From the NCBI GenBank assembly GCA_003215415.1, contig QCKK01000008.1:1-64000 (forward strand): a DNA stretch of 64,000 bases, in the 5' to 3' direction. The notes beneath the pieces are model-generated. The model saw only the letters and a program-made list of their open reading frames with translations, searched no databases and was not told the origin of the DNA. Below, piece after piece: positions 4,556 through 8,002 of the stretch. The DNA is from Prochlorococcus sp. AG-409-N21 (GTDB lineage Bacteria > Cyanobacteriota > Cyanobacteriia > PCC-6307 > Cyanobiaceae). The position numbers and the translations under genes were made by a program. Position 1 is the first letter of the stretch. Every line of letters starts with the position of its first letter.

Positions 4556-5338
4556 TTAATTTCTGGCTAATAACAAAGAAAATAAGCAAAGAACTCCTAT
4601 TAGAGGTCCTGGAGAAAGGTTAAAAGCAATCGCTAGAAAAAAGCCAAAAAAAGATAAAAGCAAACCAAACAGAGCAGAACGCACCATTGCAGAATGCAAA
4701 CTAGGTGCCTGACTTAAGCCAAAAATAGTTGGTGCTGAAAGTAAACCTATAACCAAAATGACACCTACGGCAGCCATCGAACTCACAACCACGAGGGCAG
4801 TGACAAGACCAAGTGCCAACCGCAATGAAGAAACATTTAGCCCACTAGCTGATGCACCTTCAGGGTCCAATCCAATGTAGACTAATTTCTGATATGAGGT
4901 TCTTAATAGTAATAGCAATGCAACTGCAGCTATTAAGGTTCTGATTAGTTCATCTGCTCCTACTGCAAGAAGATCGCCAAATAAAATAGATTCCAGGTCG
5001 ATTCTTATCTCTAAAAGTGGAATTAATAAAACCCCTAATCCAAGTGTGCCTGCAAGAACAGTATTAATGACAGCTTCATTGTGTCCGTTGCTTTTGGATG
5101 CAAGTCTTTCTGCAACAACAGCCCCGACCAAGCCACTAAGAACCCCACCCAATGAAGGATCAACTCCTATTGCAAGAGCTAAGACTATCCCTGGAACTAC
5201 TGAATGTGAAATCAAATTGGCTTACAGTAGACGACGATGCGTGATCAAGAGAGCACCAGTCGCAGGGCAAAGCATTCCGACTAAAAGTGCCATCAAAAAT
5301 GGCAAAGTCCACCAATTGGTAAAAAATGCTTCTAACAA
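4556..5338 (-). pseudogene. znuB: zinc/manganese ABC transporter permease (ZnuB-like), interrupted by an in-frame TAA
   Basis: From TTG 5338 the frame reads the expected N terminus of a ZnuB/MtsB-type permease (FFTNWWTLPFLMALLVG... and LLITHRRLL), hits TAA at 5222-5224 as codon 39, and continues in the same frame with NLISHSVVPGIVLALAIG and seven or so further hydrophobic segments to 4556. The total of about 260 codons is normal for the family, and the residues either side of the stop match the usual RRLL-x-ANLISHS junction, so a single base change (for example CAA to TAA) explains it. A shortened protein from TTG 5215 would lack the first membrane helix. Either a true pseudogene or a sequencing error; the broken ATPase gene nearby favours decay. 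Confidence 0.8.
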
Positions 5339-5366: not shown

Positions 5367-5792
5367 ATGAGATTCAAACCTCAGAGCATGGTGGAGCAAA
5401 CCAGTGATTTGACGACCCGTCAACAAAATATTTTGGAAGAGTTGAATAATTGTGCTGATGAGATCAGCGGCCAACAACTTCATCGAGCATTGATCGAGGG
5501 TTCTTACCATATTGGTTTGACTACTGTTTATCGACATCTTCGCACTCTTCAGCAAAAAGGATTGGTGCGATGTCGAAACCTCCCAACAGGTGAAGCACTT
5601 TATAGCCCTGTGAACAGAGATGAACATCATTTGACTTGTGTTGACTGTGGCCGAACGCTTGTGTTGAGGTCCTGCCCTATAAAAAATATCGAATTGCCTA
5701 AGGCGCAAACAAAAGATTTTGAGTTGTTGTTTCACACCCTTGAATTTTTTGGTCTCTGTAAAAATTGTCATCAGCGTCAGAAAGGCATTTGA
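5367..5792 (+). CDS. Fur-family metalloregulator, probably Zur-like
   Basis: The 141-residue product has the winged-helix N-terminal domain of the Fur family (LTTRQQNILEEL..., then GLTTVYRHLRTLQQKGLV as the recognition region) and a C-terminal metal-binding domain with HHLTCVDCG near residues 91-99 and a second CKNCH near the C terminus. Those four Cys form the structural zinc site. In picocyanobacteria a Fur paralogue beside a znu locus is usually the zinc regulator Zur, which represses zinc uptake genes. Here the gene is intact and divergent from the interrupted permease; only 28 bases separate the starts, so an operator would lie there. A second ATG at 5388 is an alternative start. Confidence 0.85.
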   Translation: MRFKPQSMVEQTSDLTTRQQNILEELNNCADEISGQQLHRALIEGSYHIGLTTVYRHLRTLQQKGLVRCRNLPTGEALYSPVNRDEHHLTCVDCGRTLVLRSCPIKNIELPKAQTKDFELLFHTLEFFGLCKNCHQRQKGI

Positions 5793-5805: not shown

Positions 5806-6009
5806 TTAGCCACAACAGTGGTTACCCATGCTGCTAATGGATTCAAGTTTGGTTCGAACTTCTTCTGGAGTCCCAAAGGCCAAAATAGTTTGGTCAAGAG
5901 TGATGACTTTGTCGTAAGCATTTAATGCTTGCCCCCAGTCGTGACTACTTACGAATACTGTTAAACCAGCCTCAGCAAGCTGTCGAACAATTCGTAATTC
6001 ATTGGCAAC
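5806..6009 (-). pseudogene. znuC: 3' remnant of a zinc/manganese ABC transporter ATPase (ZnuC-like)
   Basis: On the minus strand the frame ending at TAA 5806-5808 encodes about 66 residues: a helix ELRIVRQLAEAGLTVFVSSHD, the switch histidine (SSHDWGQAL), and a tail with LAFGTPEEVR. This is the C-terminal end of an ABC ATPase after the Walker B region. The Walker A, signature motif and Walker B are absent; a stop (TAG, 6010-6012) closes the frame exactly where homology ends. The strand matches the neighbouring permease, as in a znuCB operon. The fragment lacks any ATP-binding site and is non-functional. Confidence 0.75.
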
Positions 6010-6011
6010 CT

Positions 6012-6092
6012 ACTTACAGTGATAAGGATGGTTCTAAATGGGGCCAAGGTTGGCAACACCATATTGGAACAGGAGTGACATACCGCTTCTAG
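6012..6092 (+). pseudogene. C-terminal remnant of an outer-membrane porin
   Basis: A plus-strand frame abutting the ATPase remnant reads YSDKDGSKWGQGWQHHIGTG then VTYRF and a stop at 6090-6092. A final amphipathic strand ending in aromatic-x-Phe is the signature of outer-membrane beta barrels, and the pattern looks like the last strand of cyanobacterial OprB/Som porins. There is no start codon and the rest of the barrel is missing, because the sequence to the left at once becomes the opposite-strand ATPase remnant. I infer a rearrangement breakpoint near 6010-6014. Confidence 0.55.
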
Positions 6093-7072: not shown

Positions 7073-7258
7073 CTAACCAATCCCACCGATATCAAAGGGA
7101 AGTTTGTCTTTAAAAGCTGTCAAATATTTCTGAACTGCTGGAATACGCAGTAGAGCCAAAGGCAGCGCAATATTTAAAACGATCCACGTGGCACCAAGTA
7201 TTGTTGCCCATTTACCCCCTTTTTTTAGCAGACTTCCCTTTTGATTCTCGTTGGTCAT
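7073..7258 (-). CDS. small conserved-looking membrane protein
   Basis: A 61-residue product from ATG 7258: a lysine-rich N terminus, one transmembrane segment (WATILGATWIVLNIALPLALL) and a short C-terminal region ending IGGIG. It is the last gene of a minus-strand run after two DUF3721 genes (67 bases downstream of the second). A longer open frame upstream overlaps the DUF3721 gene in another frame and is not likely used. Family not recognised. Confidence 0.55.
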   Translation of the reverse strand: MTNENQKGSLLKKGGKWATILGATWIVLNIALPLALLRIPAVQKYLTAFKDKLPFDIGGIG

Positions 7259-7325
7259 CTTGTGAATCCCAAGTAATGGTACTACTGGTCTTATTTTCTC
7301 ATTTTGTATTGGAAGTTTCAGAGAA

Positions 7326-7781
7326 TCATTGGGTAATGCCATGAGTTGCACATGGCATCCAGAAATCTCCCATTTTGTGGACACCTAGACATCCAATTCT
7401 CTTTGCTTCGAGTTCTGCTTGAGATTTGGTGGGGTAAGCGAAGATGTTGTTTTGCGAAGAGGAAGATAAGTTTCTGTCTTCTGTTGTTTGTTCGATATTT
7501 GCTCCCCCTGGGCTCCAAACTTTAATACCCATAGTGGTAAACCCTGCCGAAAAAATTCCCATTCCTACTATCGAAGCGTTTACAACTCCCATTGCCACCA
7601 CCCCAAGGGATACCACCCCCATTGGTACCACGCCAATTGTGACAATACCCATTGGCACAATTCCTATTGAGATGAATCCAAGTGGGGCGATGCCTATAGC
7701 AATTTTTTTGGGTTTGCCTCCGCAATGGGAGGCATCGCCTAATCCTTTCGTATTAGAACTATCTGGAGTCTTCATATTCAA
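7326..7781 (-). CDS. DUF3721 protein with a strict five-residue glycine repeat
   Basis: The 151-residue product has three parts. Residues 1-25 are polar with a Cys-Gly-Gly. Residues 30-85 hold Gly at every fifth position (30, 35, 40, 45, 50, 55, 60, 65, 75, 80, 85) with hydrophobic residues between, in units such as GIVPM, GVVSL and GVVAM; this should fold as a regular beta solenoid or membrane-packing repeat. Residues 114-147 are a DUF3721 module (YPTKSQAELEAKRIGC..HKMGDFWMPCATH) with two Cys and two His that suggest metal or disulfide chemistry. It follows the lipoprotein DUF3721 gene by 5 bases, so the two are very likely co-transcribed. Function is unknown. Confidence 0.75.
   Translation of the reverse strand: MNMKTPDSSNTKGLGDASHCGGKPKKIAIGIAPLGFISIGIVPMGIVTIGVVPMGVVSLGVVAMGVVNASIVGMGIFSAGFTTMGIKVWSPGGANIEQTTEDRNLSSSSQNNIFAYPTKSQAELEAKRIGCLGVHKMGDFWMPCATHGITQ
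7527..7694 (-). repeat. coding pentad repeat (15-base period)
   Basis: Codons 30-85 of the 7326-7781 gene repeat with a 15-base period marked by a Gly codon at every fifth position; eleven of twelve positions are Gly. The DNA copies are only loosely alike, so the constraint is on the protein. Confidence 0.8.
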
Positions 7782-7786
7782 ATCAT

Positions 7787-8002
7787 TTAGTGTTGATGAT
7801 GGTCGCTGTGCTTCTCACAAGGCATCCATTTATTTCCCATTTTGTGAGCACCTTGGCAATTGAAATCTTTGGCTGCTCTCTCTGCTGCTGCTTTAGATTC
7901 AAACAGGGCTGGAATTCTACTGTTTTGTGATTTAGGTGAGCAGCTAATTAAAGGGAAGCTAATGAAGAGCAATAAGCCAAGAGATAATGGGTAGGTTCTC
8001 AT
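7787..8002 (-). CDS. DUF3721 lipoprotein
   Basis: A 71-residue product with a signal peptide ending in the lipobox LISC (Cys21), a short linker, and a DUF3721 module (FESKAAAERAAKDFNCQGAHKMGNKWMPCEKH) followed by a His-rich tail HSDHHQH. Two Cys and five or more His in a short periplasmic protein point to metal binding or redox, but no function is established for the family. It is the first gene of the minus-strand cluster and shares its module with the next gene. Confidence 0.75.
   Translation of the reverse strand: MRTYPLSLGLLLFISFPLISCSPKSQNSRIPALFESKAAAERAAKDFNCQGAHKMGNKWMPCEKHSDHHQH

Follow-up and report, generated by a model that had tools for sequence, protein, structure and literature searches.

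The DUF3721 pair of the window

The stretch of DNA analyzed here, the window, comprises 64,000 nucleotides of a Prochlorococcus genome assembly of 1.28 Mb that is 65% complete. Two adjacent genes on its minus strand are the subject of this report; both lie where a first-pass annotation, made from the sequence alone, had placed them, and each has a match to the DUF3721 family (PF12518). The layout of the locus is as follows.

7787-8002, minus strand: DUF3721 lipoprotein, 71 amino acid residues, lipobox LISC, His-rich C-terminus (open reading frame, Pfam and orthologues)
7805-7903, minus strand: DUF3721 module of the lipoprotein, C-x3-H-x8-C-x2-H (Pfam and alignment)
7326-7775, minus strand: protein with a GLTT array and a DUF3721 module, 149 residues from the ATG (open reading frame, Pfam and relatives)
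7527-7694, minus strand: GLTT array, residues 30-85 in TTG numbering, with Gly every five residues and Met at 44, 54, 64, 74 and 84
7341-7436, minus strand: DUF3721 module of the array protein, a helix plus a β-hairpin, pLDDT 91-94 (Pfam and AlphaFold)
7073-7258, minus strand: small membrane protein, 61 residues, beginning MTNENQKG (open reading frame), outside the two-gene unit
5367-5792, plus strand: Zur-type regulator of the Fur family, 1.5 kb from the pair, context (family search)
4556-5215, minus strand: ZnuB-like ABC-3 permease, context (family search); the start as listed is probably too late

The array gene has two candidate starts. The 5-base gap to the lipoprotein gene that had first been reported follows from a TTG at position 7781, which gives a protein of 151 residues; an ATG two codons later, giving 149 residues and a gap of 11 bases, is the start that agrees with the relatives. 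The small membrane protein had been counted as a third component. The open reading frame exists, but only 7 of 80 loci have a member of its family close to the pair, at varying positions, and the gene was rejected as part of the unit.

Several other features of this genome may be recorded here. In the segment 4033-5215 (minus strand), the ZnuB-like permease gene beside zur is followed by a cupin lipoprotein gene, and neither ZnuA nor ZnuC adjoins. A second Zur-like gene, 80% identical to that of the window, is found on another contig (G000:C30:790-1188). The short open reading frame at 5925-6092 (plus strand) ends in HIGTGVTYRF, which resembles the last strand of a β-barrel porin; it may be a porin remnant, since a SomB-type porin adjoins the pair in related loci. 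The window's own genome also has, on contig C11 (L002:1504-1734), a standalone GLTT gene lacking DUF3721, and in other genomes a standalone GLTT gene directly follows the pair (L048, L049, L093 and L106).

The glycine array has a ten-residue unit

Of the 12 sites spaced five apart between residues 30 and 85 (TTG numbering), 11 are glycine and one, residue 70, is Ser. The longest run of glycines at steps of five is eight, a length never reached in 100,000 shuffles, in which no run exceeded seven. The array belongs to the Pfam GLTT family (PF01744; 62.6 bits, E 2.3e-17, cut-off 21 bits), and its match to Pentapeptide_2 (PF01469; 11.7 bits, E 0.24) is below the cut-off of 26.4. The strict period-five spacing of the first-pass annotation is real at 11 of 12 sites, but the true period is ten, with Met before every second glycine; to call such an array unusual was an overstatement, as it is already catalogued as the GLTT repeat.

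The Gly, Val and Ile codons of the array are mixed, and comparison of six relatives with the window array finds differences at 35 to 48 of 75 third positions, with 60 to 69 of 75 residues identical. Mixed codons, together with third positions far more diverged than residues, indicate an old coding sequence under strongly purifying selection and no recent DNA repeat.

Alignment of the arrays gives the unit G-h-h-x-M-G-h-h-x-h. Among 99 distinct DUF3721-bearing arrays, rungs 2 to 6 are Met in 98, 98, 98, 98 and 97, that is, Met stands before glycines 3, 5, 7, 9 and 11 in 97-98 of the 99; at the off-rung sites, before the even-numbered glycines, I, L, V, F and A interchange in the same arrays. 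Picocyanobacterial standalone arrays, those without DUF3721, have the rungs R/L, M, M, M, C or M, M, with Cys or Met at rung 5, and arrays from other cyanobacterial families have H, H, H, M, M, M or H, H, M, M, M or T, M, M, M, M. Past the first rung, these paralogues and the arrays of other families have almost exclusively Met, His or Cys, all of them soft or borderline ligands for metals. Of the new evidence, we regard this near-exclusive choice as the strongest sign that the array may handle metal.

The average hydropathy over residues 27-88 (62 residues) is 1.81, and from this value the array should lie in a membrane. Structure prediction gives a confident DUF3721 module and contradictory arrays: in the full-length AlphaFold model, the array forms strands of period ten at low confidence (pLDDT mostly 39-51), whereas with the array alone the best of five disagreeing models is a helix. 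The PDB contains no relative of, or structural match to, the array protein. It is conceivable that the array is a structural scaffold, a hydrophobic β-solenoid or a helical anchor in which Met packs and the DUF3721 module alone is active. The strict glycine spacing, the high hydropathy and the low-confidence period-ten strands would all fit such a scaffold, and the rung Met may indeed be kept for packing, a point against reading the array as a ligand ladder. However, the rungs swap to His or Cys and not to the Leu, Ile or Val that are free at other sites, and arrays without DUF3721 exist that have His tails and lie in copper operons. We regard the scaffold as unlikely.

The DUF3721 module and the lipoprotein

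Both proteins are plain members of DUF3721, with scores of 62 and 60.2 bits against a cut-off of 27 (E 4.4e-17 and 1.5e-16), and show no difference from the family. The consensus is C-x-G-x-H-x-M-G-x-x-W-M-P-C-x-x-H; all of 221 domains of standard spacing keep the C, H and C, and about 96% also have the last H.

The upstream protein is, as first described, a lipoprotein with a His-rich tail: its signal contains the lipobox LISC and its C-terminus is HSDHHQH. Of 74 orthologues, with gene starts as called, 60 have a lipobox pattern; some relatives have a non-lipidated signal. The tails of the lipoproteins average five His residues, and 90% have at least three. The loci L077, L078, L080 and L087 encode another type of short, exported DUF3721 protein that has no array (e.g., AHMRGTF...GCEGIHKNQDKWMPCKN).

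Cys 129 and Cys 142 of the array protein (ATG numbering) flank the predicted DUF3721 hairpin. They could form a disulfide, in which case the pair would be a redox module that senses or repairs membrane oxidation; Met and Cys are targets of oxidation, and redox sensors exist in the Fur and MerR families. Such a module would leave the invariant DUF3721 His and the His-rich tails unexplained, and what neighbors the pair is genes for the transport of metals and for metal-responsive regulation, not for thiol oxidoreductases. We find a redox role improbable, the least favored of the roles considered here.

Distribution and neighbors in picocyanobacteria

Of 400 genomes from the window's GTDB family, Cyanobiaceae, 353 encode DUF3721. 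In a phylum-wide draw of 292 genomes, 36 have a match, all of them from this same family. Relatives of the array protein are encoded by 411 stretches among the genome contigs, and none were found in viral contigs, phages or plasmids. In 96 of 111 distinct loci, the gene immediately upstream of the array gene encodes DUF3721 alone, and the pair thus recurs far beyond this strain; several Synechococcus loci (L173-L179) are without the upstream partner. The pair is real and old.

The gene maps show several arrangements around the pair. The order porin, pair, RHH, ZnuB, Zur, ZnuC, ZnuA and COG0523 recurs in roughly 27 of the 80 Prochlorococcus loci. In another arrangement, the pair is followed by an SO_0444-like permease (PF03773, 2e-57), TIGR03943 and a znu block. 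A third has a gene for an ArsS radical SAM protein (ArsS match 1.2e-131), the pair and a convergent Fur paralogue. In Synechococcus L171-L181, an ArsS-type radical SAM gene is directly upstream of the pair, which may point to a connection with the handling of arsenic or metals. Finally, the pair may lie between HupE and a divergent MerR gene of the CueR/CadR/ZntR class, a class for which the best family-search models of the L203 protein all score below their own cut-offs. MerR proteins with a CNCS motif are divergent from the pair at L182, L187, L203 and L208, and four divergent intergenic regions show no clear common MerR operator dyad.

Of 45 genomes, 23 have a Fur-family gene within 5 kb of the pair, where uniform placement would predict 0.5. 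By genus, the figure is 9 of 23 against 0.28 expected, the other 14 of the 23 genera surveyed having no Fur-family gene within that distance. Since the genomes are related, the gene tree weighs more than these genome counts: on it, linkage to Fur is confined to one clade, linkage to Zur requires at least three changes and linkage to MerR at least two. Copper is less strongly suggested by the picocyanobacterial neighbors than zinc, iron or nickel. Together with the copper operons described in the next section, the Zur/znu, Fur-paralogue and MerR contexts fit the original suggestion of an envelope system that is perhaps metal related.

The commonest of these contexts raises the proposal that the pair is an accessory of zinc uptake, acting within the Zur/ZnuABC system to deliver zinc to ZnuA. 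Zur is encoded about 1-4.5 kb from the pair in 6 of the 23 genera surveyed, the znuB, zur, znuC and znuA block accompanies the pair in the roughly 27 of 80 Prochlorococcus loci noted above, and His-rich tails are common among zinc carriers. On the other hand, Met is a poor zinc ligand, and in other lineages the two genes stand beside Fur and ArsS or beside MerR and HupE, or znu genes are missing from their surroundings. Nor is a znu-type Zur box found upstream of the pair, where the mean score is 5.35 against 5.31 for shuffled sequence (5.2 against 5.5 in the window). The box is clear in most znuA-znuC intergenic regions, with scores mostly above 20, and because it is clear there and missing upstream of the pair, direct control of the pair by Zur is unsupported. 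A search for shared 8-mers upstream of the pair yielded none that were convincing. We judge the accessory role rather unlikely.

Arrays and their contexts outside the family

A homologue search starting from another family finds arrays without DUF3721 in many cyanobacterial families. These proteins are about 100 residues long, with no evident signal peptide and with a His-rich C-terminal tail. At L253, four consecutive genes on the same strand encode a c6-like cytochrome c, GLTT, DUF1775 and CopC-CopD. At L268, GLTT is followed by a P-type ATPase that, from its His/Cys-rich N-terminus, would be a metal pump. Inspection by eye places two such genes within 5 kb at L256, one for a copper-type ATPase and one resembling a multicopper oxidase, and a CzcA-like gene near GLTT at L260. 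Metal genes are near GLTT in about 6 of 16 loci outside the window's family, a raw count that carries no background rate. Weak GLTT matches at L211, L217 and L218, in other cyanobacteria, were rejected as reading-frame shadows or low-complexity sequence of another kind.

At L255 and L257, in two other families, GLTT directly precedes BlaI-type and M56-type genes, which resemble the PetRP switch in type. In Synechocystis, the BlaI-like PetR and the BlaR1-like protease PetP switch between plastocyanin and cytochrome c6 according to copper (PMC7896320). PetR and PetP are regulators, with the uncharacterized proteins Slr0601 and Slr0602 in their regulon, and no BlaI or M56 neighbor was seen beside the picocyanobacterial pair.

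Relation to known systems

The window array shares with the Pfam GLTT family the pentapeptide spacing of glycine, with a score over the cut-off; it differs in its ten-residue unit, its Met/His/Cys rungs and its hydrophobic character. We know of no function recorded for GLTT, and our literature search found no publication on DUF3721 or the GLTT repeat. Pentapeptide repeat proteins have the same five-residue periodicity, and possibly a β-helix in common with the array, but the array has Gly in place of A(D/N)LXX and a hydrophobic surface. The CopC/CopD and DUF1775 (YcnI) copper proteins are envelope proteins with metal ligands, as proposed for the array, and share one operon with GLTT; they have no sequence relation to the array and are globular or multi-helix proteins, not a repeat ladder. 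What appears to be new is the ladder, the gene pairing and the metal contexts, DUF3721 and GLTT being known as catalogued families.

A proposed role in envelope metal handling

We propose, at what we take to be about an even chance, that the two genes form a unit for handling metal in the cell envelope, in which capture by the lipoprotein would be followed by passage through DUF3721 to a ladder of ligands in a membrane. The steps would be as follows. The lipoprotein, from its lipobox, would be anchored to a membrane on the periplasmic side, and would catch a soft metal ion through its His-rich tail and the DUF3721 site, C-x3-H-x8-C-x2-H plus two Met. The array protein would then receive the ion at its DUF3721 module; its hydrophobic array of 62 residues would sit in a membrane with a ligand at each tenth residue. 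This ladder would hold or relay the ion, the ligands being Met in picocyanobacteria, His or Met in other cyanobacteria and sometimes Cys. We infer the metal binding, the identity of the metal, the membrane insertion and the direction of transfer from sequence and context.

The metal is most likely copper, with zinc or nickel possible. We put copper first on account of the Met and His ligands and of the gene contexts found outside the family. Within the family, where zur and znu genes are the commonest neighbors, the chief alternative is zinc. Ancestrally, the ladder array may have carried a His-rich tail and worked with copper, and DUF3721 and the lipoprotein partner would have been added in picocyanobacteria. 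More tentatively, and with the chances against it, the array could be a new membrane metal conduit or store, a one-dimensional thioether/imidazole ladder built on a fixed ten-residue repeat and spread across cyanobacteria, with DUF3721 as the picocyanobacterial capture module.

Much of the photosynthesis in the ocean is due to Prochlorococcus and Synechococcus, which perform it where trace metals are very scarce, and the movement of copper and zinc through their envelopes is poorly known. DUF3721 is nearly universal in picocyanobacteria and has no match in the other cyanobacteria sampled, which makes the pair a candidate lineage-specific system for metals. If the proposal is true, a ladder within the membrane would be an unusual placement of metal ligands, and it offers two Pfam families without a described function a directly testable role.
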